DNA from: Desulfovibrio psychrotolerans
Lineage (GTDB): Bacteria > Desulfobacterota > Desulfovibrionia > Desulfovibrionales > Desulfovibrionaceae
Length of the DNA stretch: 64,000 bases
NCBI RefSeq assembly: GCF_013340305.1
Contig: NZ_BLVP01000010.1
Span: 186,001 to 250,000 of the forward strand
Direction: 5' to 3'
Shown here: in pieces, positions 36,584-51,316 of the stretch
Layout of the letters: each line of letters begins with the position of its first letter
How positions within the stretch are numbered: the first letter of the stretch is position 1
Position numbers and translations under genes: made by a program
Notes under the pieces: generated by a model
Told to the model about the DNA's origin: nothing
The model's input: the letters and a program-made list of their open reading frames with translations, nothing else
Database searches by the model: none

Positions 36584-39310
36584 CTATTCTTCCCGCATTA
36601 CGCGGATAAGCTGCTGCAATTCTTCGGCCCGCTTGGCCAGTTCCGTAATGGCGCGGTTGGCCTCGTTCATGCCCCGGGCCGTCTCTGCGGCAATGCGGGT
36701 CACATCCTCCACCGCGCGGCCCACTTCCTCGCTGGTGGAAGACTGTTCTTCCGCCGCCGTGGCAATGGACTGCACCTGATCCGCCGTGCCGCTTATAGCG
36801 GTGACAATGGAGCGCAGGGTCTGGCCGGAGTTGGTCGCCAGCCCGGTAGAGGTTTCCACTGCCTGCGCGGCGCGGTTTACACCTTCTATGGAGAGCGATG
36901 CCCCCTGCTGTATGGCGGTAATGGCCTTGCCCACCTCTCCGGTGGCCTGCATGGTTTTTTCCGCCAGCTTGCGCACTTCGTCCGCCACCACGGCAAAGCC
37001 CCTTCCGGCCTCGCCCGCACGGGCGGCCTCTATGGCCGCGTTCAGCGCCAGCAGGTTGGTCTGGTCAGCAATGTCCTGAATAACGGTTATCACGTTGCCC
37101 ACAGCGGCGGTCTGTCCGCCAAGGTTATCCATAAAGCCTTTAAGTTCAGCAGCCTGCGCGCGCATAACGGCAATGGAGGCGATAAGCTGCTCCACTTCCT
37201 GCTGGCCCTCGCTGGCCTGCTTGCGGGCTGTTTCGGCGTTGTCCGCCGCGCTGGCGGCATTGCGGGCCACGTCCATGGAGGTGGCGCTCATCTGTTCCAT
37301 GGCCGCCGCCGTTTCCGAGGCGCGCTCAGACTGGCGGCTGGCCCCGGCAGAGGCACCCTGCACCTGCCCGGACAACGCCCCTGCGGACGAGGCAACCTGC
37401 TCGGCAATATGGATGGCGCGTGAAGCCACGGAGGCTATCTTCTCGTTCTTGGCCTGAATCTCCGCTTCCTGCGCCCGTATGGTGGTAAGGTCGTAGTACA
37501 GGGTAAACGCGCCTATCTGCCGGTTATCCAGATCGAAAATGGGCGTGGCGTTTACGTGCAGCACATGCTCCCTGCCTGCGGCGGCAATGGTCATTTCGCC
37601 CTCGGTTTTGCGGCGCGTGTCCAGTGCTTCGTCCGAGCGTGTCTTGCGGGATTCGTCATTGAAGAAGAACTTGCCCACGGTCTGCCCCATATAAGAGGCG
37701 GCGTCCCCGGTCTTGCCCGTGATTTCCAGAAGCCGTTTGCCCATGAAGGTGATGCGGCGGTCCGTATTCAGGGTCATACAGGGAAAACTGTCGGAAATGG
37801 CGTTGAGTATGCCCTGCGAGAACCCGAGGCGTGTCTTCAGTTCGCCCACCATGTGCTGGATGGATACCTTGAGCAGTTCCAGTTCCGCAGGAAAACTGCC
37901 GTCTATGGACGCCTTGAAGTCGCCATCGGCAACAGCCTTGGCGTAGGCGCCCAGTCGGTTCACAGGCCCCACAATGCGGGAAACCACGGTAACGGCGAGC
38001 ACCGTGCCCGCAAGAATGAACACCAACAGCGCTATGCCGCCCGCCGCCACCATGGAGGTGCGGGTGCTGTCCGCCATGGCCTCCACCTCGCGGCTTATGC
38101 GCATGGCTTCGGCTTCATCCATCTGCGCCACCAGCGCCCAGCGCTGGCCCAGCACGTTCACGGGCTGCCAGGCGGCCAGGGTGCGCACGCCGCGGTAGTC
38201 TTCCGCAAAGCCCTGTCCGGTTTGGCCGCTCAGGGCCTCCTGCACCGGAGCGGTGCGGATGCTTTCCGCAAGCACATCCAGTTCCGTATCATGAAAGCGC
38301 GAGGAGGTCCGGCGTTTGCCGTCCGGGCCTACAAGATAGGTTTCGCCGCTCTCGCCCAGCCCGAAGGTGTCAAACTGTCCCTGATTAAGGAGCATGGCAT
38401 TGAGGGACTTTACAGGAAGCGCAAAGGCGAGGGTGGCAACATACTGCCCGCCGTCGAACACAGGCGTTGCCATAAAGGCGGTAGGGGCGTTGCCCAGTGG
38501 TTCGTAAGGGGCAAAGTCGGTGCTGACTATGCTCTCTCTGCCGTTTTGTCCGGCTTCGTCCGCCAGAGCATAGGCTTTGGCGAGGCCGCTGTCTGCCAGC
38601 GGGCCGCCGGAGATGGTGGAAGCAAAGTCCGGTGCCTTGGTGACGGAGTAGAGCACCTGACCCGTACGCGGCAGAATAAGGTAGATGTCGCGGTAGCCGA
38701 ACCGTTGCGCGTAGTCCAGAAACACGGGGTGAAAGCGCAGGTGGTTGTCGGTGTAGCCGGTGAATACGTTGTCCGCTTCAAGCAGTTCCTGCCTTTTGGC
38801 GTGGTCTGGCTGCGACTGGATGAACAGCTTCCACAGTACCACCGCGTTAGGGTCTGCCGGAACGTAGGCATCGGGCGGAGAGGGCCGGTACTCAGGGGCT
38901 ATGGCCGAATGGGTGGCAAAGGAAGGCTGCGCCAGAAAAGCCGGGCCTGCCACAAGGGCGGCAAGCTCTTTGCGCAAAGGCTCTATGGCATCGGGTGGGG
39001 TTTCCGATTCGTGGCGCACGATTTCAAAATCGTAGGCAAAGGCCAGCGCGGCATCAATGGCGGTGCGCCCCTTGGCAAAGGTGGCAAGCTGGTCTTCCAT
39101 GCCGCGCAGAAGGTCTGCCACCTGCACGGATTTTATGCCGCGCAGGGTGGCGAGCTGGCTCTGGGCGCGAGACTGCAGCGCCTGCGAGCTTGCCTCGCCC
39201 ACTTCGGCCATGCCGCCCGAACCCATTTTCCACATGGTGGCGGCAATGCCCAGCATGCCCAGAACCATGACGGAAAGAACGCTGACAAGCAGTTGCTTTT
39301 TCAGTGTCAT
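36584..39310 (-). CDS. Methyl-accepting chemotaxis protein with large periplasmic sensor and PAS domain
   Basis: 908 residues from [12 protein letters not shown] (39310). TM1 about 5-25; a periplasmic sensor of about 400 residues, dCache-like ([23 protein letters not shown]); TM2 about 425-450 ([17 protein letters not shown]); HAMP; a PAS-type domain ([27 protein letters not shown]); then the MCP signalling domain with hairpin tip [44 protein letters not shown]. It ends [11 protein letters not shown] without a CheR-tether pentapeptide. Ligand unknown. Monocistronic. Confidence 0.92.
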
Positions 39311-39699
39311 ACTATTTCTGCCTTTCAGGAAGGTGCTTCGCCTGCCTGCTGCGGAAAGGGCCATTCCCTGCATATTCCGTCAGCCGTACAGGCGTTGTGC
39401 CCGTGCCACGTCCGGCCCTCCGATAGTGTGCGCACACTCTTGCTGCCGTCAGGCTCTGCAACCTGAAGACAGCGTATCCCATACATCGTGCGTGTGCGCG
39501 CATGTTCCGGGACCATGCTTCCCGGAAATAATATATCAGACGGCCATAGATGCACATGCAGCCCCCGTTGCAGACATCCGCCATAGAGAGGGGAGAATGT
39601 ATGAGACGCAGTGCCATGTCAATGCCGCATTGTTCAATGCTGCAAAAGTGGCTTCAGCATCAGACAAGATACATTTTTGTAGGTTCCCGCCGTCCGTTT
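39311..39699. other. Gene-free spacer between the DUF4197 and MCP genes
   Basis: About 390 bp, no supported gene. It must carry the MCP promoter (minus strand), but no sigma-28 or sigma-54 consensus was recognised. No tandem repeat array was found here. Confidence 0.5.
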
Positions 39700-40470
39700 T
39701 TATTGCGAAACGGAACCGAACACCTTTTTCAGAATGTCTGAGGTGCGCGCCGCAGGGTTGGTCCGTATCTTGGCCTCTTCTTCCGCCATAATGGTAAATA
39801 TGCCGTGTATGGTTTTATCCGTGACGTAGCCGTCCAGATCCATGGCAGATGCGTCCATGAGCGGACTCAGGCTTTTCAGCTTGCCAGCGTAATTCTTGTA
39901 GGCTCCTGTAACATTGGCCTTTTCGGTAGACTTCTCCACAATGGGGCGGATGCGCGTAGTCAGGTCGCCCGTGGTGGTGCGCTGAAAATAGCGGGTGGCA
40001 GCATCCTTGGGACCGTTCAGTATGGCGCGGGCATCGTCAAACGACATCTCGCTTATAGCCTTGTAGAAGATGGAGGCCGTTTCCGTGGTTGCCTGCTCCG
40101 CCGCGCTGTTCATGGTCTGAATGAAGTTGTCTGCAAGAGCGTCCTGCCCCAGCGAGCGGGCTATCTTTTCTCCTGCCTGCAGGTGCTGCGGCATGGGAAT
40201 GCGGACAGAAGGCGTGTTCAGAAATCCCCCGTCCTTGCCCAGAAAGGAAACGGAGTTCCCCACGGTGGTGCGCAGGGCTTCCTTGAGTCCCTGTGCGATG
40301 TCGCCCGTGGAAAGTCCGGACTGCGCAGCCTGTGTTCCGGTGGTCTGGCTGCCGGGCATAACGGTCTGTTTGAGCGTGTCCATGATGCCCGCCCGTAGCG
40401 GGAGCACGGAAACAAGTAACAGGGCCGCGCACAGGGCGGCGCGGTGGATGAAGGGACGGTATACGCGCAT
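39700..40470 (-). CDS. DUF4197 family exported protein
   Basis: 256 residues with a signal peptide (hydrophobic core AALCAALLLVSVLPL, likely cleavage after LRA). The rest matches the DUF4197 pattern: GDIAQGLKEALRTTVGNSVSFLGKDGGFLNTPSVRIPMPQHL, MNSAAEQATTETASIFYKAI, DDARAILNGPKDAATRYFQ, and TDKTIHGIFTIMAEEEAKIRTNPAARTSDILKKVFG. The family is widespread in proteobacteria, periplasmic, and of unknown function. ATG has AAGGAG at 7 nt. Downstream of the seven-gene operon by 74 bp on the same strand; whether it is part of it is unclear. Confidence 0.85.
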   Translation of the reverse strand: MRVYRPFIHRAALCAALLLVSVLPLRAGIMDTLKQTVMPGSQTTGTQAAQSGLSTGDIAQGLKEALRTTVGNSVSFLGKDGGFLNTPSVRIPMPQHLQAGEKIARSLGQDALADNFIQTMNSAAEQATTETASIFYKAISEMSFDDARAILNGPKDAATRYFQRTTTGDLTTRIRPIVEKSTEKANVTGAYKNYAGKLKSLSPLMDASAMDLDGYVTDKTIHGIFTIMAEEEAKIRTNPAARTSDILKKVFGSVSQ

Positions 40471-40544
40471 GGAAGGTCTCCTTTAAGTGAGCGGAATAAG
40501 GTCAGCATGCGGAGCATACTGCGGATGAGGGGAGAGCGGTAGTA

Positions 40545-41840
40545 TTATTCCGCCGAATCGGCAGAGGAGAGCGGGGTGCAGCAGACATCCTTGGCGCAGA
40601 GCATCTTCTGGAACACGGTCTGCACGTATTTGCCGGAAAGCACATCCGGCAGGGAAAAGCGCAGTGGGTCCGCTTCAGGCAGGTTGCCGGAAAGAGCTAG
40701 AAAAACCTGAGCGGAAAGTTCTTTCAGCGGCTCGACAAGCTGCTCCTGCCACAGGGCGGCGCTCTGCGTCTCCCCAAGGCCGAAGAGGCGGCACTTGAGC
40801 GGCCTGTAAGTGTAGAGCATGCACAGGTCGCTGCACACCGCGCCGTTCGGGTGGGCTTCCTGCGGCGCAGCCGACAGCTCCGCGTCATGGTCGTGCTGTT
40901 CCGCGTCATGGCCGTGCTGCGCCGGGGCATCCTCTTGGGGGGCGGCAGATTCCGTGTTCAGGGGACACAGCGTGTCTGCCGCAGAAAGGCAGTAATCTCC
41001 GGCAAGCCCCTTGCGCGCGTTCCGTTCTCTGCGGGAGGCATCCACGGCACGGCGGATGATCTCGCTGCGCTCCGTGGCGGGAATGAGCGTGTTTATGCGG
41101 CTGCTCAGCACCAGCGCCTCAATGAGGGTAAGCGAAACGGGCGATCGGCAGCACTGGCTGTGGTCGCGTCCGCAGCGCGGGAACGGCGGCAGGCTGTCCA
41201 GCGCGGTTTCCACCTGCGTTTCCAGCGCCAGATAGCTGGTAATGAACGGCGCAAGGTCCACCGTTTTACCGAACTCCAGCGAAGGTTCACACACGGTGAG
41301 GGGGGTGTTCTGCCTGCCATACCGGCGCACGGTGCGCCATTGGTCGTAGTTGGCGGGCTGGGAGCGCAGGCGTTTGAGCGTGCGCGCCGCAAGCTGGTGC
41401 CCCAGTCCCTTGCGCAGCAGGTAGGCGTTCAGCACGGTGCCCGTTCTGCCAATGCCGTGGCGGCAGTGCACATAGACGTGCTTGCCCAGAAAAAGGGCTT
41501 CATCCACCCACTCCAGCGCCTTGTCCAGCGCTTCCAGTTCCGGGGCTTCTTCGTCAATGATGGGAAGATGGTAGACCTCAAAACCGGCCTCCCGTTCTAT
41601 ATTGGCCAGTTCCGTCAGTTCATCGCACAGGTTAAGAATGCACTGTATGCCCTGCGCAGAAAGGGCCTTCAGGTGCGCGCGTGCGTGGGGAGCGGGCCCC
41701 GCGCCCAGATGCGACGTAACCCAGTGCACGGGAAACGCCGGGTCCGGCGCAGGCGTGCCCGAAGGCTCCACGGGACGCATAAAATCCGTAAGGCAGCGTT
41801 TAAGGGTGCACCCCAGTCTGTGCAGCAGCGTCTGTCCCAC
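40545..41840 (-). CDS. Dual-specificity phosphatase fused to a YkgJ-like Cys-cluster domain
   Basis: 431 residues. The N-terminal tyrosine/dual-specificity phosphatase domain (about 35-175) has the P-loop VHCRHGIGRTGT (HCX5R with Cys126 and Arg132) and the general-acid loop region IIDEEAP. The C-terminal half has Cys clusters CGRDHSQCC, GDYCLSAADTLCP and CSDLCMLYTYRPLKCRLFG, which matches the YkgJ signature YxxRPxxCR; a His/Asp-rich insert (HGHDAEQHDHDAE) lies between. GTG start overlapping the upstream gene's stop codon. Last gene of the operon from 50008; probable phosphoprotein phosphatase with a metal or redox-linked tail. Confidence 0.85.
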   Translation of the reverse strand: MGQTLLHRLGCTLKRCLTDFMRPVEPSGTPAPDPAFPVHWVTSHLGAGPAPHARAHLKALSAQGIQCILNLCDELTELANIEREAGFEVYHLPIIDEEAPELEALDKALEWVDEALFLGKHVYVHCRHGIGRTGTVLNAYLLRKGLGHQLAARTLKRLRSQPANYDQWRTVRRYGRQNTPLTVCEPSLEFGKTVDLAPFITSYLALETQVETALDSLPPFPRCGRDHSQCCRSPVSLTLIEALVLSSRINTLIPATERSEIIRRAVDASRRERNARKGLAGDYCLSAADTLCPLNTESAAPQEDAPAQHGHDAEQHDHDAELSAAPQEAHPNGAVCSDLCMLYTYRPLKCRLFGLGETQSAALWQEQLVEPLKELSAQVFLALSGNLPEADPLRFSLPDVLSGKYVQTVFQKMLCAKDVCCTPLSSADSAE

Positions 41841-44311
41841 TATTCGCGGTTCTCCAGTGCGTCAAGGTCCAGCATGAACGCCTGTTCCGCCTCGTCAATC
41901 TGGTCATGGCGGGTCAGCCCCATATCCATCATGCGGGTGCGTGCGAGCAGAAGTCCCAGCAGGGCAAGTCGTTTCTGGATAACAGCATCCGTTTCCGCCG
42001 GGTGCCGTGCATCCAGCATGTCCCCCCGCGTGGTGACGGAAAAGCCGAACCGGGTAAGGATGCGTTCAATAAACGTCAGCCGCAGCACCCGTTGTTCCGG
42101 TCTGCCGCCGCCGCCCTTGAAGCGGAATTTGATGTAGTTCTGCCGGTCGTCCGGCCCGCAAAGGGTGTCTATGATTGAAAAATGGTAGCCCAGCCGCATC
42201 ATCATGTGCATGTAGGTGAGTGAAAGAACAGCATAGCTTGCCAGTTGCGGCGAATCCGGGCTGATGATGCCGCCGCTTATGCGGTCCATTTCCTGCCAGT
42301 CCATGTGGCGCAGATGGGTGGGCCACTGCACCCGGTCGCTGGAAAGCCCGAACCAGAGCGCCCACATGGGAACGGAGCGGATATCGTCCGGCGTTATTTC
42401 CGGCTTGCCTGCTGCGGAATGGAAAAGACCATTTTCCAGATTCAGCAGGTACATGGAGATGGGCACCTCCGTGCGCAGCTTCCGCGCCCCTGCCAGCCCG
42501 CGTCCGGAGCGTCCCACAAGGGTGAACATCTCTTCCACGCCGCGCTCGTGGGCAAACCGCACCAGATCGTGCATAGACCGGCAGAACTCCGGCGCAAAGT
42601 TGTCTGCCAGCGGGTCGGTGAGGTTCAGCTTGGCAATGCGGGGCATAGCAGCGCCCAGCCGCCTCATGGCTCCCAGCGGGCGCGGGGTGACAAAGGTTTT
42701 CTCCGGCAGCGAGTCCGGCTTTCCGGTATGCACGGTGCCCCGCAGCCCGTCCACGGTTATGGTGCTCCCGTGCTGAATGGTATCAAGGCACCCCTCCGCT
42801 TCCACTATCACGGGCAGGCCGAACTCCCGCGCCACAGAGGCGAAATGGCTTGCCCTGCTCCCGCGTTCCGCCACCACGGCCGCAAGCCTGTCCATAACGC
42901 GGGAAAGCGCGGGGCCGAGGTTGCGCGTCACCAGCACGGTTCCGCGGGGCAGATTCTGAATGTCGCTGCACTGCGGAATAACCTGTGCCGTGCCCGCCGT
43001 AAGCGCCGCCGCACCCGCAGGCGTGGCAGAGAGCAGGGCGGGAAGGTCCGGCGGGCCAAAGGGCTCCTCCGGGCTTGCATCGACGGTGCTTATGGCCCGG
43101 CTTTGCACCACATACAGGCGGTTGCGGGTATCCATAACCCACTCCACGTCCTGCGGTGCCCCGAAGAGTGCTTCCAGCCGCATGGTATGTTCCGCCAGCC
43201 GTTTCAGCGTGGGCACGGGCACGGGAAAATCATCCTTCCGCGCAATAATCCTGTGCTGTGGCCTGCGCGAGAGCAGGGCCGTGTGCGCAGCTTCGGAACC
43301 GTCCACCAGTGCCTCGCCCAGCCCTTCCACGGCGTAGGCGGCAAGAACACCGTGCTCCCTGTCCGGTGCGGGCAGGTTATCGTGGCGTTCCGGGTCGCGG
43401 GTGTAAACCACGCCCGCGCAGGCGGCATCCACCATGGGCATTATGAGCACCGCCATGGGCGTTTCGGCGTCCGCAAGTCCGTGCATAATGCGGTAGGCAA
43501 GGGCACGCGGAGCATACTTGGAGGCCACCACGTTCTTCCACGCTTCCACAATGTCGGCGGCGGCCACATTGAGCTGCGAGGCATACTGCCCGGCAAAAGA
43601 GGCCTCGCCGTCTTCCGCCACGGCACTGGAGCGCACCGCCAGCAGCCTGCCCCCTGCCCCAAGCTCCATGGCCGCGATTTCTATCTCGTTGGCAATGGCT
43701 TCCGGCATGTCCGCTTCCTGAATAAGCAGCTGCATTTCATCCGCCAGCGCGGCAAGTTCCGCCGGGTCGGTGAGCCGTATCTGGCGCAGCCGCGCATCCA
43801 GTTGCGGGCGCAGTTCGTTGGCTTCTATGAAATAGTGGTAGGTGCTGGCCGCAACAACCATGGCGGGGGGCAGCGGCAGGTCGGTTTCACGGGCTATGCG
43901 CGCCAGATGCAGCGCTTTGCCGCCGGACTGATTCTCGTGCAGGTGGGCTTCTTCCAGCGGAAAGACAAAGGGCGGGGTTATTTCCGATTCCGGAACCGTT
44001 ACCGCCATGCGCACGTAGAAATGAATCTTGGAAAAATAGTCCTGCAGGTCCATGTACCGGGTGGGTCCCATGGATTGCAGCTGCTCTATGAGTCCGCGCA
44101 GGTTTCTGCCCAGCTCCTCGCACAGCCATTCCACGCGTGCCCAGTCCGCATGTTCCCGCCCGTAGTGAATCTCCTCAAGGTCTGCAATGAGTTCAAGGCA
44201 TCTGTCGTCCAGACGCAGCAGTTCCTTAAAGGCATTGTATTTGTTGCGCAGCAGGGTGCCGGGGGCAAAAGCCTGATACGTCCAGTGCAGGAAGAGTTCG
44301 CGAAACGACAT
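41840..44311 (-). CDS. PEP synthase/PPDK-like phosphotransferase lacking the PEP-binding barrel
   Basis: 823 residues. An N-terminal region (1-120) of unknown fold is followed by a PPDK_N ATP-grasp domain (about 128-410: GGKALHLARI, LAVRSSAVAEDGEASFAGQY, DVEWVMD, QSRAIS) and the swivelling phosphohistidine domain with AERGSRASHFASVAREFGLPVIV, where His489 is the expected phospho-carrier. The last ~270 residues do not show the PEP/pyruvate TIM-barrel motifs (no SxGTNDL or CGE-type segments), so it is not an ordinary PEP synthase. The acceptor is unknown, as in rifampin phosphotransferase-like enzymes. It lies between a response regulator and a phosphatase. Confidence 0.82.
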   Translation of the reverse strand: MSFRELFLHWTYQAFAPGTLLRNKYNAFKELLRLDDRCLELIADLEEIHYGREHADWARVEWLCEELGRNLRGLIEQLQSMGPTRYMDLQDYFSKIHFYVRMAVTVPESEITPPFVFPLEEAHLHENQSGGKALHLARIARETDLPLPPAMVVAASTYHYFIEANELRPQLDARLRQIRLTDPAELAALADEMQLLIQEADMPEAIANEIEIAAMELGAGGRLLAVRSSAVAEDGEASFAGQYASQLNVAAADIVEAWKNVVASKYAPRALAYRIMHGLADAETPMAVLIMPMVDAACAGVVYTRDPERHDNLPAPDREHGVLAAYAVEGLGEALVDGSEAAHTALLSRRPQHRIIARKDDFPVPVPTLKRLAEHTMRLEALFGAPQDVEWVMDTRNRLYVVQSRAISTVDASPEEPFGPPDLPALLSATPAGAAALTAGTAQVIPQCSDIQNLPRGTVLVTRNLGPALSRVMDRLAAVVAERGSRASHFASVAREFGLPVIVEAEGCLDTIQHGSTITVDGLRGTVHTGKPDSLPEKTFVTPRPLGAMRRLGAAMPRIAKLNLTDPLADNFAPEFCRSMHDLVRFAHERGVEEMFTLVGRSGRGLAGARKLRTEVPISMYLLNLENGLFHSAAGKPEITPDDIRSVPMWALWFGLSSDRVQWPTHLRHMDWQEMDRISGGIISPDSPQLASYAVLSLTYMHMMMRLGYHFSIIDTLCGPDDRQNYIKFRFKGGGGRPEQRVLRLTFIERILTRFGFSVTTRGDMLDARHPAETDAVIQKRLALLGLLLARTRMMDMGLTRHDQIDEAEQAFMLDLDALENRE

Positions 44312-44391
44312 GCCGTTCCCTGAAGGTTGGCCCGTCCCCCAAGCCCGGCATGGCGGGTGAACAGGTGTTGCGCGCCGTAAGCGGCCGGTAG

Positions 44392-44751
44392 CTACAGTCC
44401 CATTACCTCATCAACCTTGTCTTCCAGCTCTTCCTTGTCAATGGGTTTCACGCAATACTCGTTGGCACCCAGCTTCAGCGATTCGCGCGCTGTCTCCAGC
44501 GTGGGATACCCGGTGAGCATGATAACCCGTATGTCCGGGCAGCGGCGTTTAAGCTCTTCCAGCACCTGCACCCCTGTCATCTTCCGGAGTTTTATATCCA
44601 GAATGGCAAGGTCCGGGCAGGCTGCCCCGGCGTGGTTTATGGCTTCCTCCTCATCGGTGAATACGGTTACAGAGTGCCCTTTGCGTTCCAGAATACGCTT
44701 AACCAGCACGCCTGCGTCTATCACATCATCCAGTACCAGAATGGAGGCCAT
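44392..44751 (-). CDS. Single-domain response regulator
   Basis: 119 residues, receiver domain only: acidic D8/D9, phospho-acceptor Asp52 (LAILDIKLRKMTG), Thr80 (VIMLTGYPT) and Lys102 (YCVKPID). No output domain, so it works as a phospho-relay or by binding another protein. Its ribosome site (GGAG) lies in the gap after the kinase gene, whose stop is 5 bp away; the kinase is the obvious partner. Confidence 0.93.
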   Translation of the reverse strand: MASILVLDDVIDAGVLVKRILERKGHSVTVFTDEEEAINHAGAACPDLAILDIKLRKMTGVQVLEELKRRCPDIRVIMLTGYPTLETARESLKLGANEYCVKPIDKEELEDKVDEVMGL

Positions 44752-44756
44752 GGGTA

Positions 44757-46874
44757 TTACTCCGTATCGCTTGCGGCCTCTGCAGGCCGGTTTTTGTCTT
44801 TGCAGGTTCTGGGTTCGTACCCGTCAGAAGATTCCAGCGGCAGGGTAACGATAAAGGCCGTGCCGGGACCGTGGGTAATGCCCGCCAGCGTTTCTTCGTC
44901 AATCATGCCCTGCGGCAGCGGGCTTACGGCCTCAATGGTTCCCTCGTGGTCTTCAATGATGCCGAAGGAGACAGAAAGCCCCAGTCCCGTGCCCTTGCCC
45001 ACCGGCTTGGTGCTGAAAAAGGGGTCAAAGATTGCCTTCCTGTCCTCTTCCCGTATGCCGCTGCCCGTGTCCATGAATATGGCGGTTATGGTAAAGTTGG
45101 CCACATCCAGCCGGGTGACAATCTTGATGATGCCGCCGCACTCCGTGGCTTCCGCCGCGTTGGAGAGCAGGTTTATCCACACCTGTTTCAGCTTTTCCGG
45201 GTCGCCGTAGATAACGGGAAACCGGTCATCAAGGTCGGTGATAATTTCCAGATGGTCCAGTTTAAAGGCGTGCCGTATGAGCTGCACCACCTCCATAACG
45301 GAGTTGTTGAAGCACATTTCCTTTTTCTCGCTGCTGGTCTGACGTGAAAAACCCAGCAGGTCGGCGACAATCTTGCGGCAGAACTTTGCCTGTTTTTCAA
45401 TGATGGCAAGGTCTTGATGAATCTGGCTTTCCGGCGGAACATCTTCCTGCAAAAGCTGCGCATAGCCGAGTATGATGCCCAGCGGGGTGTTTACCTCGTG
45501 AGCCACGCCGCCTGCCAGTTTGCCCACAGACTCCATTTTCTGTGAGTGGATGAGCTGGTCCTGATAACTCTTCAGGTCCGTGATGTCGCGGGCAGTGGTC
45601 AGCACGCCGATAATGCGCTGGCGTTCGTCCAGCACGGGAACGCGCAGAATATGGAACCAGCGGCGCACCCCTGCGGCGGAAACGATAAGCGCCTCTCGGT
45701 TCACCGGAGTGCCGTCGCGCAGAATGGCGCGGGTTTCCGCCTGCCGTTCCGGGTCTGTAAGCGGGGAAATAACATCCGTTTCGGCCAGGCCGATGATCTC
45801 GTGTTCTTCATTGCCGAAAAACCGGGCAAAGGCCCTGTTCACCGCAAGATAGCGGAAGTTACGGTCTATCAGCGACACCTGGTCGGGGCTTACGGAGAGG
45901 ATGGTGCGCAGCAGTTCCTGCTGGCGGGTAATGTCTTTCTGTGCCCTTTGCAGGTCCGTTATGTGCTTGCGCAGCGAAAGAGCCATCACATCAAAGGTTT
46001 CGGAAAGTTCCTGAATCTCGTCTCCGGCGTTTTCCAGAAACACGGGGCATTCACGGCAGTTGCTCATCTTGCCGGGGTAGTCTTCCGGATTGCAGTTGGC
46101 GCACATGGTTCCGGCAAGGTACCAGCAGCGGCGCTCCGTGTCGCCGTAGGCGGGGCAGTCTCTTCCTTGGCACTGCTGAATTTCCCAGCAGTTGCGATGC
46201 AGGTGCACGCCGGTGTCCAGTTCCAGATTGCCGCGAACCATTTCTTCCGCATGTTCGCGCAGCTGCCCCAGCCGCAGCGAGATGCGCCGCGCAAACTGGG
46301 TGGAGATGAATATGGCCACCAGCAGGGCAATGCCCGCAAGCCCGGCAATAGTCACAATAAGCCCCTGCACCACCTCCTGCGCCTTGGTGTGCGAAAGGCC
46401 TATGCGCGCAGTACCCACAGACCTGCCCGCCACCACCACGGGCACGGCAAAGTCGTAGATGCGTTCCCTGCCTGTATCCAGCAGGCGCACGCTTTTGCTC
46501 TCTCCGTAGGGAACAAGGTTGGCGGCACGAAGGTCGCTGGGAAATCCGCCCGCAAAGCTGTGCACCAGAATACGGTGCTTATCGTCCAGAAAAAAGGCGT
46601 AGAGAATGTCTTCATCCACAGAATGCAGCTCGTCCACCATGTTCTTGAGTACCAGCAGGTCCACGGAGAGCATGGGGTCTGCCGCGCGCAGGGCAAGGTT
46701 GTCCGCCAGCACCTGCCCGCGTCGCTTGGATTCCTGAAGCAGCGCGTCAGCCGATATGCGTGTTACAGCCGTTGCCAGCACAATGGACGACAAAACGACA
46801 ATGAGCGTGATGCCCAGATTGAGCTTGTTGCGGAAGCGCATGCGGGAGAGGCGCAGATACTTGAGCGGCAGCAT
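44757..46874 (-). CDS. Membrane histidine kinase with HAMP, eight-Cys cluster and PAS
   Basis: 705 residues from the ATG at 46874 (GAGG at 7 nt; a GTG one codon earlier is possible). TM1 about 18-38, a periplasmic sensor to about 168, TM2 about 170-192, HAMP, then a Cys-rich insert with Cys 229, 235, 240, 250, 258, 261, 273 and 276 (NCWEIQQC...RRCW...CANC...CREC), of the two-CW type. A PAS domain (about 320-435), HisKA with His459 (GGVAHEVNTPLG) and a complete HATPase_c (DTGSGI, GKGTGLGLSVSFG) follow. The Cys cluster could sense redox state or metal. Its start overlaps the stop of the PhnD-type gene. Confidence 0.92.
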   Translation of the reverse strand: MLPLKYLRLSRMRFRNKLNLGITLIVVLSSIVLATAVTRISADALLQESKRRGQVLADNLALRAADPMLSVDLLVLKNMVDELHSVDEDILYAFFLDDKHRILVHSFAGGFPSDLRAANLVPYGESKSVRLLDTGRERIYDFAVPVVVAGRSVGTARIGLSHTKAQEVVQGLIVTIAGLAGIALLVAIFISTQFARRISLRLGQLREHAEEMVRGNLELDTGVHLHRNCWEIQQCQGRDCPAYGDTERRCWYLAGTMCANCNPEDYPGKMSNCRECPVFLENAGDEIQELSETFDVMALSLRKHITDLQRAQKDITRQQELLRTILSVSPDQVSLIDRNFRYLAVNRAFARFFGNEEHEIIGLAETDVISPLTDPERQAETRAILRDGTPVNREALIVSAAGVRRWFHILRVPVLDERQRIIGVLTTARDITDLKSYQDQLIHSQKMESVGKLAGGVAHEVNTPLGIILGYAQLLQEDVPPESQIHQDLAIIEKQAKFCRKIVADLLGFSRQTSSEKKEMCFNNSVMEVVQLIRHAFKLDHLEIITDLDDRFPVIYGDPEKLKQVWINLLSNAAEATECGGIIKIVTRLDVANFTITAIFMDTGSGIREEDRKAIFDPFFSTKPVGKGTGLGLSVSFGIIEDHEGTIEAVSPLPQGMIDEETLAGITHGPGTAFIVTLPLESSDGYEPRTCKDKNRPAEAASDTE

Positions 46875-47914
46875 CACAATGCCTCAGGTTCCGCGCCGGA
46901 AATGTCGGGCTTGGGGATGGCGGGGTCTGCAAAGGTTCCTCGCGAAAGGTCGTCGGGCACAGCGTCAGATGTGGAAACCTGCTCATCTGCCGGAAGCGAG
47001 AACCGGGTTTTTTCAATAAGCTCCCGCACCGAGTCATAGTCTGTATCACTGGCAGGAAGAATACGGCTTATGCCCGCTGCCGCAAGAATGGGAACATGCA
47101 CGGGGTTTTCCGGCGAAAGCTTGAAAAGTGCTCTGGCAATGGCGTTAATGGTTTCTTCCGGCAGCCCCCTGCGGGCAGAAAAGAGCCATTCCGGGTAGCC
47201 GCGCGTGGTGGCCAGAATACGCAGTTTCTCAAGGTCCACCTTGTCCTTCACAATCTCCAGCGTGCCCTCTCGTATGGAGGCAATGTCGTACTTGCCCGCG
47301 TAAACGGCAAGCACAGCCTTTTCCTGCTTGCCGCCGGGGCCGGGCGCAAAGGCTATTTCCGCAAAGTCTTCCTGCCGTATGCCATGATCCAGAAAATGCC
47401 CCAGCGCGAACAGGTAGCCGCCTGCGGAGAGCGGGTCCACGGCAATCCAGCGTTTACCCCGGCAGTCGTCCAGCGTGCGGATATCCGGATTGTCAGCGCG
47501 GACAATGATCTGCCCCCGAAAGTCCGCACTGCCGGAGGCATCCACAATGCGCGCAAACGCGCGTGCGCCGGATTTGGCCATGCTTACGTAGGTGAACGGG
47601 TTGGTGAAGGAAATGTCTATGTCGCCGCGCTCCACCAGCCTGCGGTGCTCCTCAAAGGTGTCGGGAAAGACCTGCCGCATGGAAAGGCCTGTTTCTCTGG
47701 CGAGATATTCCACCAGCGGATTGTGCCGCCGGTAGGAAACGGTGTGCGAGTACTGGGGAAGATACGCGTAGGTGATGGAGGGAGTCGGTTCCGGCACGCG
47801 CACTTCTTCACGTTTGGACATGTCCACACGCACCACGGCTTCGTCTTCTCCGCAGCCGTACAGAACGGGAAGAGTAAGGAGCATCCAGACAAGCAGGGCG
47901 GTAAAGCGGGGCAT
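46874..47914 (-). CDS. PhnD/SsuA-type substrate-binding lipoprotein
   Basis: 346 residues. Signal peptide with lipobox PVLYGC (Cys21). The mature part is a phosphonate/phosphite-binding-like type II periplasmic fold: YLPQYSHTVSYRRHNPLVEYLARETGLSMRQVFPDTFEEHRRLVERGDIDISFTNPFTYV, GQIIVRADNPDIRTLDDCRGKRWIAVDPLSAGGYLF. No ABC permease or ATPase is linked; its stop codon overlaps the histidine-kinase start (TGATG), so it probably acts as a ligand receptor for that kinase rather than a transporter part. ATG has GGAG at 7 nt. Confidence 0.88.
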   Translation of the reverse strand: MPRFTALLVWMLLTLPVLYGCGEDEAVVRVDMSKREEVRVPEPTPSITYAYLPQYSHTVSYRRHNPLVEYLARETGLSMRQVFPDTFEEHRRLVERGDIDISFTNPFTYVSMAKSGARAFARIVDASGSADFRGQIIVRADNPDIRTLDDCRGKRWIAVDPLSAGGYLFALGHFLDHGIRQEDFAEIAFAPGPGGKQEKAVLAVYAGKYDIASIREGTLEIVKDKVDLEKLRILATTRGYPEWLFSARRGLPEETINAIARALFKLSPENPVHVPILAAAGISRILPASDTDYDSVRELIEKTRFSLPADEQVSTSDAVPDDLSRGTFADPAIPKPDISGAEPEAL

Positions 47915-47931
47915 GGCAAGGCTCCTGCCGG

Positions 47932-48699
47932 TCAGGCGGTTCCCCCTGCGGATTCGGGCACAGGGGCCATGGCGGTGTTCTTCCTGTCGCGTTTGTCGGT
48001 GGCCCCGGCAGATGCCTGTTCATCGGCACACAGGCGGGCTGTCTCCGCAACTGCGGCAGGCGTTTCCGTTCCGGTTTCAGGGTGCGCTGCCCCGTTCGTA
48101 ACTTCGTTTGTATCGGTCGGTTTCTGGCCGAACAGGTCGCTCCAATGGCGCATGGGTTCTATGGCCTTTGCATCCTCGGTACGCATGCGCGCCACCCTGC
48201 GGAGCAGGGGAATATGCTGGCGGATGCGGCTCAGCCCGTAACGGAGCGGAATGTAACACGCAAGCACAACAAATGTGTAGCCCAAAGGCTTGTCAAAATA
48301 CGGAACGGTGTGAACGGCAATCCCTTCAAACCGGGATTGCAGCCATGCCATGGCAAAGGGCAGCGGAAGGATGGAAACGGAGAACAGCGCTGCCTGAGAG
48401 AAGAAATATTTGCCGAAGTAGTCGTTGGCAAATTTGTTGGTGGCCTTGTAGCTGGCTTTGTCCTTGCTGACTATGGCCTCCACGGAAAGGTTGTGCATGT
48501 GCACCATCTTGGTGCTGAGCGAGGCGTAGTGCCTGCGGTTGCACAGGTAGACCAGCGAGAGAAAGATTTCGCCCACAAGCAGAATCCACAGGGAGAGAAT
48601 GGCCGTACCAAGCCAGAAGCCCGCCTCTGCCGGTTCCAGCCAGCGGTAGGGGGCTATGAGAACGGGGTCTACCATCTGAAGCAGGGAAGAGAAATCCAT
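47932..48699 (-). CDS. Membrane protein of unknown function (operon gene 2)
   Basis: 255 residues from the ATG at 48699 (GGAG at 6 nt; the frame is open upstream only because it reads through a 21-bp repeat array). Hydrophobic helices at about 25-52, 100-120 and 137-155, with a conserved-looking cytoplasmic loop CNRRHYASLSTKMVHMHNLSVEAIVSKDKASYKATNKFANDYFGKYFF. The C-terminal 75 residues are polar, Thr/Ala/Glu-rich and probably disordered. I do not recognise the family. Lies between the TauE-like exporter and the PhnD-type lipoprotein. Confidence 0.8.
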   Translation of the reverse strand: MDFSSLLQMVDPVLIAPYRWLEPAEAGFWLGTAILSLWILLVGEIFLSLVYLCNRRHYASLSTKMVHMHNLSVEAIVSKDKASYKATNKFANDYFGKYFFSQAALFSVSILPLPFAMAWLQSRFEGIAVHTVPYFDKPLGYTFVVLACYIPLRYGLSRIRQHIPLLRRVARMRTEDAKAIEPMRHWSDLFGQKPTDTNEVTNGAAHPETGTETPAAVAETARLCADEQASAGATDKRDRKNTAMAPVPESAGGTA

Positions 48700-48738
48700 G
48701 CGCGCTCCTGTGTGGTCTGCCTGCCGGCGTGTTGTCTG

Positions 48739-48850
48739 TCCGGCGAGTATCTGGCGGACCTTGTTGCCGGTCCCGCGGACCCAATTTTCTGTCCCGCGGA
48801 TCAGGGTACCTGTCCGGCGGACCCTGTTACGGGTCCGCCGGACAGGCAAG
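48739..48850. repeat. 21-bp degenerate tandem repeat (about 5 units)
   Basis: Units at 48750-48770, 48771-48791, 48792-48812 and 48813-48833 are each exactly 21 bp with core TCCSGCGGAYC, flanked by partial units. The array fills the gap between the TauE-like gene and operon gene 2. Confidence 0.85.
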
Positions 48851-48862
48851 TGTGGGCTAAGG

Positions 48863-50008
48863 CTAAGGCAGAATCTTCAGGCCGAAGAGACCCTGCGTGG
48901 TGTACTTAATGCCTACGTACATGGCCACCACGATGAACAGGCGTTTCAGCCAGATGTCCGGAATGTACTTGGAAGTGCGGGGACCGATGACGGAACCCAC
49001 GAAGATACCCACCAGCTCGGCGCCGATGAGGGGCCAGAAGATGGGGGTGTTGGAAACGAACATGAAGGTGAAGATGGAGGTGATCATGCTGATGAGCACC
49101 GCCAGAGCGGAGGTGCCTGCCACAAGGTACATGGGCAGACCGGCAACGCTGGTGAGGAAGGGCACGAGCAGGAAGCCGCCGCCAACGCCCAGGAAGGAAG
49201 CCAGACCGGCGATGAAGAAGCCGCCGACGAGGGGAATGAGCGGATTGAAGGAGAACTCAACGCCAAAGAAGGTGAACACGCACTTGTTGGGGGCAAAGGA
49301 AATAACCTTCACGCCCATGGCTGCGGTATCAACCTTGGAGCCGCTCTTGATAGAGGCTTCAAACGCCTTGGCGGCTTCCTTGGCCTTTTTCTTGGATTCC
49401 TGTCCCTTGGGGGTGGTTTCCCAGAACAGGTAGCAGCCGAGGGCAAGCACGAACAGGCCGAAGTAGCCGATATAGGCCTTCAGCGAAATTTTGCCTGCGG
49501 TGAGCCAGGGAATAAGCGATGCACCGGCGATGGAGGAAAGGCCAAGTGCCAGTGCCAGCGGCAGCACCAGCCGGCCCATGCGCCAGTAGTTGAAGGAGGA
49601 GATGGCGGCGGATGTACCCACCAGCCACTGGTTGGACACGCGGATGGAGTCGGTGACCAGCTTGTTCAGGGTGGGGGAAGTGTCCTTGAAGCTGGAGGCA
49701 TAGGAGCCGAAGCCGAACACGGTAATGTGGCCCACGCCTGCCATAATGCCGCCGAATGCGCCGATGGTGGAGAATATCCAGCCTACCCACACGGCCCAGG
49801 CAAAGCCGAGCAGCAGGTTTACGTTAGGTGCGCCGGGAATGCCCAGAAAGCCCGTGGGAGCTTCGGGGTTAATGTGCCCGGGCTCCGTGCCCACGGGAGC
49901 GGAGGCAATGGCTTCCTGCAGGCGCTGCGCCCATGCGGGTTCCATGAACGCAAGCACTGCCATAACAGTGAATGCCAGCATGAGAAGTGATTTTTTCGAC
50001 TTGAACAC
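48863..50008 (-). CDS. TauE/SafE-family sulfite/organosulfonate exporter-like membrane protein
   Basis: 381 residues, GTG start at 50008 with AAGGAG at 6 nt. N-terminal signal-like segment (MFKSKKSLLMLAFTVMAVLAFMEPAWA) then about eight transmembrane helices in two TauE/SafE repeats: AVWVGWIFSTIGAFGGIMAGVGHITVFG and PLVGGFFIAGLASFLGVGGGFLLVPFL, with the repeated G-x-GGG-x-LLVP motif, separated by a Lys-rich cytoplasmic loop. Family members export sulfite, sulfoacetate or related anions; in a sulfate reducer sulfite is a natural candidate. First gene of a seven-gene minus-strand operon. Confidence 0.88.
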   Translation of the reverse strand: MFKSKKSLLMLAFTVMAVLAFMEPAWAQRLQEAIASAPVGTEPGHINPEAPTGFLGIPGAPNVNLLLGFAWAVWVGWIFSTIGAFGGIMAGVGHITVFGFGSYASSFKDTSPTLNKLVTDSIRVSNQWLVGTSAAISSFNYWRMGRLVLPLALALGLSSIAGASLIPWLTAGKISLKAYIGYFGLFVLALGCYLFWETTPKGQESKKKAKEAAKAFEASIKSGSKVDTAAMGVKVISFAPNKCVFTFFGVEFSFNPLIPLVGGFFIAGLASFLGVGGGFLLVPFLTSVAGLPMYLVAGTSALAVLISMITSIFTFMFVSNTPIFWPLIGAELVGIFVGSVIGPRTSKYIPDIWLKRLFIVVAMYVGIKYTTQGLFGLKILP

Positions 50009-50464
50009 GTTGTACTCCTTGCGGTTGCAACCAAGCAGGTTGATTGACTGGGCAGGTGCTCCCAACGCGCGGGAGGTTCCTGCCGTTGGCGCAAATGCTA
50101 CTTGCTTCCTCTGTACACTGCGCGGGCGGCCTTCCGGCAGCCCGCACCGGGAACGCTGGGCGCCCGGCGAACGGCATTTTCCAGTAAACGCGAGATAGCA
50201 GCGGGGCACAGCGGCAGCAAGGAGAACCGACTATGGGAAAACAATCACTTTTTTTCACAAGGAAAGGCCAAAAGAACGCCGCTGTGGCTCGTCAGCTTGT
50301 GAAAGCAGTCACAATCAAATTATACAATATGTTAAAATAAAGGGGATTATAATGTTTTGCGCAGGCCGTATGGAAAACGCGCAGCACGGTGTTTCTACGT
50401 TTTCCAAGTCGGCGTGGCGGCAACGGCGCGCCGGTTGTTGCCGGTTGCGGTCTGTCGCCGCCTG
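50009..50464. other. Regulatory region upstream of the TauE-headed operon
   Basis: About 455 bp with no gene. On the minus strand it carries TATAAT (50324-50319) followed directly by a TTGTGA-N6-TCACAA site; a weaker half-site pair (TTGTGA...GTGATT) lies near 50243-50262. A tandem GCCGGTTG duplication is seen near 50430-50450. The long leader (about 290 nt from the site to the GTG) is unexplained. Confidence 0.55.
50297..50314. promoter_or_regulatory. CRP/FNR-family (HcpR-type) binding site
   Basis: TTGTGA-AAGCAG-TCACAA, a perfect dyad identical to the HcpR consensus described for Desulfovibrio (TTGTGA-N6-TCACAA). It begins five bases after a TATAAT box on the minus strand, so it would overlap the transcription start and act as a repression site for that promoter. 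Confidence 0.7.
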
Positions 50465-51244
50465 TTACCGTGCCATAAGCCCGGATTCAAACCGGCTGAT
50501 TATGGCATCGTAGGAACCGTCACTCTTCATGGCTTCCAGACTGGCCGTCCACTCGTCAATGATTTTGGAGTCCGTGTCACGGGAAAAGGCTATGTACAGT
50601 TGCTCGTCGGTCACTTCCAGCACCACTTCCAGCCAGTCCGGAGCCTTGCCCGCGCGTGCGGCAGCAAAGGTGCCCGTGGGCCATGACTGAAACCACAGGT
50701 CTATGCGATCTTTGGAGAGCAGGTGTACCATCTGCTCGGGCGCGCCCGGCACAATGTACAGGTTGGTGAAGCCGCGTTGCTGAAGGTACTGCTGTTCAAA
50801 ATAGTCCTGAAGAACCCCCACCGTCAGGGAACGGGCATCTTCCAGTGAGGCAATATGGACGGGGTGCCCCCGCCGTTTGAACATAACCACGTGCGAGGTG
50901 TAGATGGGGCCGACCCAATGGAACAGGTCTTCGCGCTCCGGGGAACGTACGGTGGAAAAAAGGGCCACGTTGGGGGTTGCCAGCGCCTTGGCATAGGCTC
51001 TGGACCACGGCAGAACCCGGATGCCCGATGGGGTGTGCGTACGGGTGCGGCGAATGATCTCCCGCACCACCTCGGCGCACACGCCGCGAACCTCTCCCTG
51101 TCGGGTGTAATTGAGCGGTGCAAGTTCCTCCGTCAGCACCTGCAGGGAATGAGGCATGCCCTTCTGTCCTGCGAAACCCGGCGGGGCAAGTGCAAGCAGA
51201 CCGAGCAGCAGCGCAGCCACGTACCGGATTCTCCATATGATCAT
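50465..51244 (-). CDS. Periplasmic solute-binding protein, SBP_bac_3 family
   Basis: 259 residues from MIIWRIRYV (51244; AAGGGG before the ATG). Signal peptide with core AALLLGLLALAPPGFAG. The mature domain has the amino-acid-binding-like pattern (LQVLTEELAPLNYTRQGEVRGVCAEVVREIIRRT, VALFSTVRSPEREDLFHWVGPIYTSHVVMF, DGSYDAIISRFE). No transporter genes are adjacent, so it may be an orphan receptor. It lies between the acyl-CoA-synthetase/GNAT gene upstream and the TauE operon's regulatory region downstream. Confidence 0.85.
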   Translation of the reverse strand: MIIWRIRYVAALLLGLLALAPPGFAGQKGMPHSLQVLTEELAPLNYTRQGEVRGVCAEVVREIIRRTRTHTPSGIRVLPWSRAYAKALATPNVALFSTVRSPEREDLFHWVGPIYTSHVVMFKRRGHPVHIASLEDARSLTVGVLQDYFEQQYLQQRGFTNLYIVPGAPEQMVHLLSKDRIDLWFQSWPTGTFAAARAGKAPDWLEVVLEVTDEQLYIAFSRDTDSKIIDEWTASLEAMKSDGSYDAIISRFESGLMAR

Positions 51245-51316
51245 GCCATTCCCCTTGTCATCTATTCCTGTAAGGAAACTTTGTAAGGTTTGCAAGCAGG
51301 CAGGGGAAGGGCCGTG

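Follow-up and report, generated by a model that had tools for sequence, protein, structure and literature searches.

The 64,000-nucleotide window analysed here, a stretch of the Desulfovibrio psychrotolerans contig NZ_BLVP01000010.1 (positions 186,001 to 250,000), carries an operon of seven co-directional minus-strand open reading frames (ORFs), all open, that runs from 50008 down to 40545 in window coordinates. Pfam families were matched for six of the seven proteins. The first gene (48863..50008, with a GTG start at 50008) encodes a TauE/SafE (TSUP) permease of 381 residues, called TauE below (PF01925, E-value 1.7e-23, 84 bits against a cut-off of 32.6). Gene 2 (47932..48699), whose product matched no Pfam family, encodes a small membrane protein (MP) of 255 residues, predicted to consist of a transmembrane (TM) segment, a long helical hairpin and further TM sequence. 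Then come a PhnD-type periplasmic lipoprotein and proposed oxyanion receptor (46874..47914; PF12974, Phosphonate-bd, 5.4e-62); a sensor histidine kinase (44757..46877) with the architecture sCache, HAMP, Cys-rich linker, PAS, HisKA and HATPase; a lone receiver domain of 119 residues without an output domain (44392..44751; PF00072, Response_reg, 4e-24); a phosphotransferase of 823 residues resembling phosphoenolpyruvate (PEP) synthase (41840..44311; PF01326, PPDK_N, 2.8e-58, and PF00391, PEP-utilizers, 7.2e-21); and a dual-specificity-type Cys phosphatase of 431 residues (40545..41840; DSPc/PTP-SAK/Tc-R-P, PF00782/PF22784/PF22785). An earlier note, made by a model from the sequence alone, had listed the same seven packed genes, and Pfam agrees with it everywhere except at gene 2, which has no family. 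The junctions that it described are also correct: PhnD and kinase genes overlap by 4 bases at 46874, phosphotransferase and phosphatase genes by 1 base at 41840, and kinase and receiver genes are separated by 5 bp (44751-44757). The remaining gaps are 163 bp (TauE to gene 2), 17 bp (gene 2 to PhnD) and 80 bp (receiver to phosphotransferase); the first and last of these are the loosest junctions, the others being tight.

The earlier note took this module to be undescribed, which does not hold. Korte 2014 (PMC4001038) reported a Desulfovibrio ‘nitrate cluster’, DVU0251-DVU0245 or Dde_0598-Dde_0605, given in Table 3 of that paper as TauE, hypothetical protein, PtxB/PhnD, PAS/HAMP kinase, receiver, pyruvate-phosphate-dikinase-like protein and dual-specificity phosphatase. 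Set against that table, our ORFs and Pfam matches show identical gene content and gene order, so that the window operon matches the nitrate cluster by gene order and annotation. The receiver gene measures 360 bp in both, and TauE is the positional and annotation counterpart of DVU0251/Dde_0598. One difference is that no gene like Dde_0597 (DUF169) lies beside the window operon; D. vulgaris has no homolog of that gene either.

Mutants of the cluster were characterized in the same study (PMC4001038). In D. vulgaris, 100 mM nitrate left the growth of isolated TauE, MP, receiver and phosphotransferase mutants unchanged, whereas the isolated phosphatase mutant was nitrate-inhibited. The highest fitness on nitrate in D. 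vulgaris, 11.44, came from loss of TauE. Resistance was confined to nitrate, with none for nitrite or chloride. Because the phosphatase insertion in D. vulgaris was not resistant, the resistance of the phosphotransferase insertion is not due to polarity onto the phosphatase. These mutant data mean that the trait exploited by nitrate depends on permease, gene 2, receiver and phosphotransferase alike, while the phosphatase acts in the opposite direction in D. vulgaris, not in D. alaskensis. The authors suggested a leaky thiosulfate transporter and cited unpublished mild sickness of D. alaskensis G20 cluster mutants with thiosulfate as acceptor. The cluster is thus already known by its phenotype; among the main texts of open-licence papers, none was found that explains how phosphotransferase and phosphatase would act on the permease, nor any that reports dead phosphotransferase copies. 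The main text of a 2023 D. vulgaris fitness paper (PMC10102598) mentions neither DVU0245, DVU0251 nor ‘TauE’.

Conservation was examined in two collections. The order set comprised 81 genomes of the order of the window (Desulfovibrionales by inference), with 38 loci containing a phosphotransferase ortholog. The named-genome set comprised the best 80 of 565 confirmed stretches, on which all its figures rest; neither D. vulgaris Hildenborough nor D. alaskensis G20 is among the names of these 80. Loci were called well flanked when the phosphotransferase ortholog had at least 9 kb upstream and at least 2.5 kb downstream (23 same-order loci), and a gene was called present by thresholds set on BLAST or HMM bits. 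ORFs of relatives were called mechanically, so that certain start sites are artefactual, as are some of the overlapping or missing calls. The earlier note proposed a single functional module and, as its check, co-occurrence of all seven genes across Desulfovibrionales. A five-gene core of PhnD, kinase, receiver, phosphotransferase and phosphatase was found in 21 of the 23 well-flanked same-order loci, which supports the module; all seven genes co-occur in 11 (in L080 as two divergent groups), and TauE is missing from 11. The phosphatase is present in 33 of 34 same-order loci with room downstream. This gene order is beyond chance.

The named-genome set contains 15 Desulfovibrionales-type names; the rest are nearly all Desulfobacterota or deltaproteobacteria, with one Nitrospiraceae. 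Here the phosphatase accompanies the phosphotransferase in 67 of 71 loci with room, the five-gene core is found in 16 and all seven genes in 9 of 44 well-flanked loci. When the 15 Desulfovibrionales-type loci are removed, the phosphatase remains at 55 of 59 while all seven genes are seen at 2 of 34 and the core at 8 of 34, so the tight pair is phosphotransferase plus phosphatase. In these loci the kinase, receiver and PhnD genes can occupy the opposite strand. The sensor part is mainly, though not only, a Desulfovibrionales arrangement. A phosphatase ortholog was found in 27 of 297 genomes of the phylum, and dsrA in 25 of these 27 compared with 119 of the 270 others (Fisher p 5e-7, with relatedness ignored); the two phosphatase-positive genomes lacking dsrA are metagenome-assembled genomes (MAGs) 62-67% complete. 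Other arrangements occur. In L173 (Desulfogranum) the pair is joined by another kinase, a receiver, a molybdopterin oxidoreductase, a 4Fe-4S protein, a long TauE, a gene-2-like protein and an NtrC regulator, and L195 has the same arrangement judged by gene order. TauE, MP and a full phosphotransferase are found together without PhnD, this kinase or the phosphatase in L141, L149 and L154. A 4Fe-4S protein (Pfam) directly precedes TauE in L092; a similar one was seen by eye in L089, and 171-residue ORFs take that place at further loci.

The phosphotransferase comprises an N-region (1-115), an ATP domain (approximately 116-415), a phospho-His swivel domain (approximately 440-535) and a C-terminal domain (approximately 546-823). 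ATP-site residues and the catalytic His (His489 counting Met1; alignment column H488) are invariant in 21 of 21 sequences. The name ‘dikinase’ used in the earlier note is not supported, since by Pfam, and by an alignment with the solved PEP synthase 8a8e that covers the ATP and His domains and ends at residue 553, the protein lacks the PEP/pyruvate-binding part. Like PEP synthases (8a8e, 5hv1, 2ols) it has an ATP domain and a swivel domain with the catalytic His; it differs in that an unassigned C-terminal domain replaces the PEP/pyruvate-binding domain. The order of ATP, His and C-terminal domains is that of PEP synthase. The PEP synthase model TIGR01418 of NCBIfam scored 221 bits, under its cut-off of 739.75. 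Rifampin phosphotransferase shares the ATP and catalytic-His swivel domains; identity with it or with PTS enzyme I was rejected, as their NCBIfam scores were far below the cut-offs.

The C-terminal ~270 residues are conserved within the family, with no Pfam match beyond residue ~525. In the predicted structure (pLDDT 84.6) the order of helices and strands is not that of an (alpha/beta)8 barrel. A Foldseek search of the PDB found nothing at E 0.001, its best match being at 0.02, and the domain profile found nothing better than 0.16 among PDB sequences. The best structural match, Z 5.5 to chlorophyll catabolite reductase, lies within the range of common arrangements and was not used to name a fold. 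The predicted domain therefore has no named fold, which does not show that the fold is new.

Relatives of this protein that have lost their catalytic parts were found beside the permease. In genus g19, TauE and gene 2 lie apart from the core, with a phosphotransferase relative of 566-721 residues after them. Its N-region (69-82 bits) and C-terminal domain (141-169 bits) are retained; its ATP domain is worn (42-78 bits, against 426 in an intact protein) and lacks the ATP-site motifs, and a His domain is absent (at most 5 bits). Such a dead copy was present at 11 of 11 TauE-MP loci examined (L110-L120), 15 genomes of the genus having an MP match. All 11 genomes also encode a full-length phosphotransferase elsewhere, next to the phosphatase; in G055 the contig stops at that point, leaving the sensor genes outside view. 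A dead copy of 662 residues follows TauE, MP, PhnD and kinase in L080, and a weak one (C-terminal part 38 bits) was found in L128. The g19 and L080 copies show that the end domains can accompany the permease once catalysis is lost, and those of g19 support a permease-phosphotransferase link. For the earlier note, scattering of the genes in related genomes would have counted against one module. The core holds together, and where the TauE-gene 2 pair is separated in g19 it carries a dead copy; nine coreless loci, taken up below, do not fit this picture.

The pairing of phosphotransferase with phosphatase, also read from the sequence earlier, stood up, both an intact phospho-His site and a Cys-phosphatase motif being present. 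The active-site motif of the phosphatase is HCRHGIGRT, and its C-terminal tail bears a Cys cluster that may be YkgJ-like; HC(x)5R is invariant in 18 of 18 phosphatases, as are six C-terminal Cys. PF03692 (YkgJ) matched 13 of 18 orthologs weakly at E-values up to 1 (best 1.1e-4), the window protein giving no match.

On the sensing side, residues are similarly well kept. Cys21 of the PhnD protein is found in >90% of 33 rows. In the kinase, Cys 230, 236, 241, 251, 274, 277 and 500 and the phospho-His460 are found in 33 of 33 rows, Cys259 in 97% and Cys262 in 61%; seven linker Cys reach 97-100%. Receiver residues D8, D9, D52, T80 and K102 are present in 34 of 34 rows. The closest solved chain to the PhnD protein is ArrX (7.8e-14), next HtxB/PtxB. 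AioX and ArrX are first components of arsenic-oxyanion signal systems (PMC5908839), and in ThsS and TtrS PhnD-like domains sense thiosulfate and tetrathionate (PMC5408782); the model for TtrS matched the PhnD protein below threshold (1.1e-10, 40.7 bits against a cut-off of 750). By analogy with these precedents the idea of a PhnD-type receptor feeding the kinase, already in the earlier note, appears sound, and a sulfur oxyanion is a reasonable ligand. Thiosulfate would be the best guess, favoured solely by the remark in Korte 2014 and by distribution among sulfur reducers. Strain G20 on hydrogen releases up to 5-7 mM thiosulfate (PMC4215793), so a route for its re-uptake might be useful.

AioXSR and ArrXSR (PMC5908839) resemble the window operon in having an adjacent PhnD-type periplasmic protein, membrane kinase and regulator near an oxyanion-handling system. 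They differ in that the window has a permease in place of a molybdoenzyme, and a receiver that lacks a DNA-binding output and is followed by phosphotransferase and phosphatase. The 119-residue product is a receiver only. AioR and ArrR carry a DNA-binding output. ThsSR and TtrSR (PMC5408782) share PhnD-like sulfur-oxyanion sensing with a kinase and a regulator; there, the PhnD-like domain is the kinase's own sensor domain, and the thiosulfate regulator is FixJ-like. From its sequence the operon would be a PhnD-type oxyanion-sensing system of the AioXSR/ArrXSR kind with an output type not described in the literature that we found.

TSUP proteins are abundant in sulfate reducers and their function is not predictable (PMC5840216). 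TauE resembles them in passing the PF01925 cut-off and differs in being paired with a membrane protein predicted to be TMCO1-like; a sequence search at E-values up to 1 found no solved relative. A TauE gene lies within 300 bp of 32 of 35 MP genes in one locus set and of 17 of 19 in the other. Among the five exceptions, L124 has no TauE in 17 kb, L098 begins at a contig end, and TauE is further off in L091, L151 and L163. MP has a conserved block WPxPFALAW...RF, and its model (pLDDT 90.4) shows a TM helix, a long helical hairpin and further TM helices. In a second look at this model the top two chains came from TMCO1/multipass-translocon entries (Z 9.2 and 7.7), and we take both to be TMCO1 itself; the better, 7tut_8 (Z 9.2, rmsd 3.6, 139 aligned), falls short of the caution threshold that the tool sets for helical folds. 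Foldseek on its own found nothing significant (best E 0.48, with 7tut_8 ranked 18), and MP had no PDB sequence match. PF01956 (EMC3/TMCO1) matched 2 of 19 MP relatives weakly at E-values up to 1 (best 0.022) and the L173 gene-2-like protein below cut-off (0.00077), with no match in the window MP, nor in its own genome at E-values up to 10. These weak matches of relatives agree with the TMCO1 reading, and an alignment with gene 2 was obtained for the short protein next to the long TauE (hhalign probability 91, E 1e-6). TMCO1-like fold similarity of the gene 2 model is thus a lead, not membership.

Upstream of TauE lies a perfect palindrome, TTGTGA-N6-TCACAA (50297..50314), of the HcpR/Rex/CRP type. 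It is the sole match with up to one mismatch in 64 kb, 0.11 being expected. The HcpR1 site is TGTGA-N6-TCACA, and Rex binds identical sites (PMC5701242). In Korte 2014, rex mutants have a nitrate phenotype in common with cluster mutants, and an upward trend of cluster expression in nitrate and nitrite is quoted (PMC4001038). The palindrome is perfect in 5 of 57 other TauE upstream regions (L074, L134, L135, L136 and L162, three of them labelled Solidesulfovibrio) and imperfect or absent elsewhere, and so is not a constant feature of the system; the 57 comprise 37 from the order set and 20 from a genome-contig set, with at least two organisms in both. The nitrate resistance of Rex mutants may have another cause, Rex acting on sat. 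Scans for sigma-70 promoters and terminators gave no more matches than in shuffles, and Rfam at gathering scores had no match in 39000-51500.

We propose, tentatively and at just short of an even chance for the reading as a whole, that the operon serves for sensing and for control of a permease by which sulfate reducers take up an anion. An extracellular sulfur oxyanion would be bound by the PhnD-type lipoprotein, which would signal through the Cys-cluster kinase to the lone receiver; this receiver has no DNA-binding part, and its output would be the PEP-synthase-like phosphotransferase. Control of the phosphotransferase by the receiver may be allosteric, which is at least as likely as phosphate relay. 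The phosphotransferase would load phosphate from ATP onto His489, and it and the Cys-phosphatase would oppose each other on the TauE-MP permease or a partner, phosphotransfer turning anion uptake on and the phosphatase turning it off, with the end domains of the phosphotransferase facing the permease. Nitrate would enter by the same route as the anion, so that loss of the permease or of its activators would give nitrate resistance. The gene set, the intact catalytic residues, conservation and the occurrence in one genus of dead paralogs next to the permease are read directly from sequence, and the mutant phenotypes come from the work of others on relatives; the ligand, transport direction, phosphate acceptor and step order are our interpretation. 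We regard as somewhat unlikely the more specific form in which the two-component output is an ATP-driven swivel-His phosphotransferase, opposed by a Cys-phosphatase, that reversibly switches TauE, its dead paralog has become a fixed permease subunit in one genus, and a TMCO1-like partner is needed.

Several observations weigh against this proposal. In the pooled D. vulgaris data the MP mutant had a score of -5.82, yet the isolated mutant, grown once in triplicate, was resistant; the D. alaskensis phosphatase mutant was nitrate-resistant too (+2.08); and the kinase DVU0248 is annotated as a pseudogene, its isolated mutant having little or no advantage (PMC4001038). The thiosulfate link comes from unpublished data quoted in the discussion of that paper, and ArrX did not bind any further ligand that was tried, thiosulfate included (PMC5908839). 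Orthology to the DVU and Dde genes is judged from order and annotation. TauE is not in the stretch for 11 of the 23 well-flanked same-order loci, the core is found at just 8 of 34 outside the order, and the dsrA association neglects phylogeny. Nine TauE-or-MP loci without the core (L107, L109 and L121-L127) have no dead copy, the search in L121-L123 being limited to the 0.7-0.8 kb or so of sequence after MP.

The signal might instead end in transcription: kinase, receiver and phosphotransferase would act through an unlinked DNA-binding regulator of the TauE operon or regulon, and the phosphotransferase and phosphatase would make and remove a signal. The sigma-54 NtrC-type regulator (Pfam) that follows the pair in L173 speaks for this, as do receiver proteins of similar size after the pair in many Desulfobulbales loci, the HcpR/Rex-type palindrome and the shared phenotype of rex mutants. 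We nevertheless think it unlikely, given a receiver without an output domain, no NtrC gene in the window operon, and dead copies in g19 that accompany the permease, not a regulator; the mutant data together with these copies favour control of permease activity over pure transcription control. It is quite unlikely that the phosphotransferase and phosphatase are metabolic enzymes, a PEP-synthase variant acting on a small molecule, with the nitrate phenotype an energy or redox side effect. The domain order shared with PEP synthase fits such a role, and Cys clusters in kinase and phosphatase suggest a redox input; the genome's own eight matches to the phosphotransferase show that paralogs exist, and the pair is retained more broadly than the sensor genes. 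Against it stand the missing PEP-binding domain, a C-terminal domain without Pfam family or clear solved fold, the linkage with permease and sensor, and resistance specific to nitrate over nitrite and chloride.

The invariance or near-invariance of Cys500 and the seven linker Cys of the kinase, six Cys in the phosphatase, the HcpR/Rex-type site and the expression trend in nitrate and nitrite would also suit a redox or nitrosative stress module sensing redox at the Cys clusters rather than an oxyanion. With a PhnD receptor in the core at 21 of 23 loci, which points to a ligand, and no nitrite phenotype, this is decidedly improbable. The earlier note was reasonable, by the receptor analogies, in supposing an anion ligand of sulfur type; its further supposition, that TauE exports the sensed anion, fares badly. 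The permease family is named after a sulfite exporter and direction is not readable from sequence. Since loss of TauE gives nitrate resistance, uptake rather than export is indicated: the fitness of 11.44 on nitrate is hard to reconcile with export, the mild sickness of G20 cluster mutants on thiosulfate acceptor (unpublished data in Korte 2014) also counts against it, and we hold export to be highly improbable.

Nitrate is dosed into oil fields against sulfide formation, and mutations in the cluster defeat nitrate in laboratory strains (PMC4001038). If true, our proposal of a controlled uptake permease would name an entry route of nitrate, and probably also thiosulfate, into sulfate reducers and its gating; it would add a new output type to two-component signalling and assign a function to one group of Desulfobacterota proteins that resemble PEP synthase. 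With dead paralogs lying next to the permease, the idea can be tested directly. New here, from sequence comparison and predicted structures, are the five-gene core, the persistence of the phosphotransferase-phosphatase pair outside the order, the co-occurrence of phosphatase and dsrA, the replacement of the PEP-binding domain, the g19 dead copies, the TMCO1-like prediction and the upstream palindrome.

Some further features were noted. Between TauE and MP lies an intergenic array of palindromic units (48732..48849; GTCC(G/C)GCGGAC at 21-base spacing), possibly an operator, RNA processing or attenuation site, which may not belong to the system. An SBP_bac_3-type periplasmic binding protein is encoded directly upstream of the operon on the same strand (50465-51295). 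Genus g3 (L107, L109, L125 and L126) keeps TauE and gene 2 with neither the sensing core nor a dead copy. The Desulfobulbales version of the cluster includes a molybdopterin oxidoreductase (L173 2466-9923 and L171 17819-20668), with a NarJ-like part in L171 and the 4Fe-4S protein in L173. In L205 and L206 a PTS enzyme I-like protein and a 337-residue thiamine-monophosphate-kinase-like protein, both recognized by eye, are encoded just before the phosphotransferase. In L139 (4314-9567) a long TauE, a gene-2-like protein, a second, weakly PhnD-like protein and a chemotaxis receptor all lie beside the phosphotransferase-phosphatase pair, a possible chemotaxis input for the same anion. The five-gene core of L190, in a MAG labelled Nitrospiraceae (isolate fen_1308) and so outside Desulfobacterota, possibly reflects transfer between sulfate reducers.

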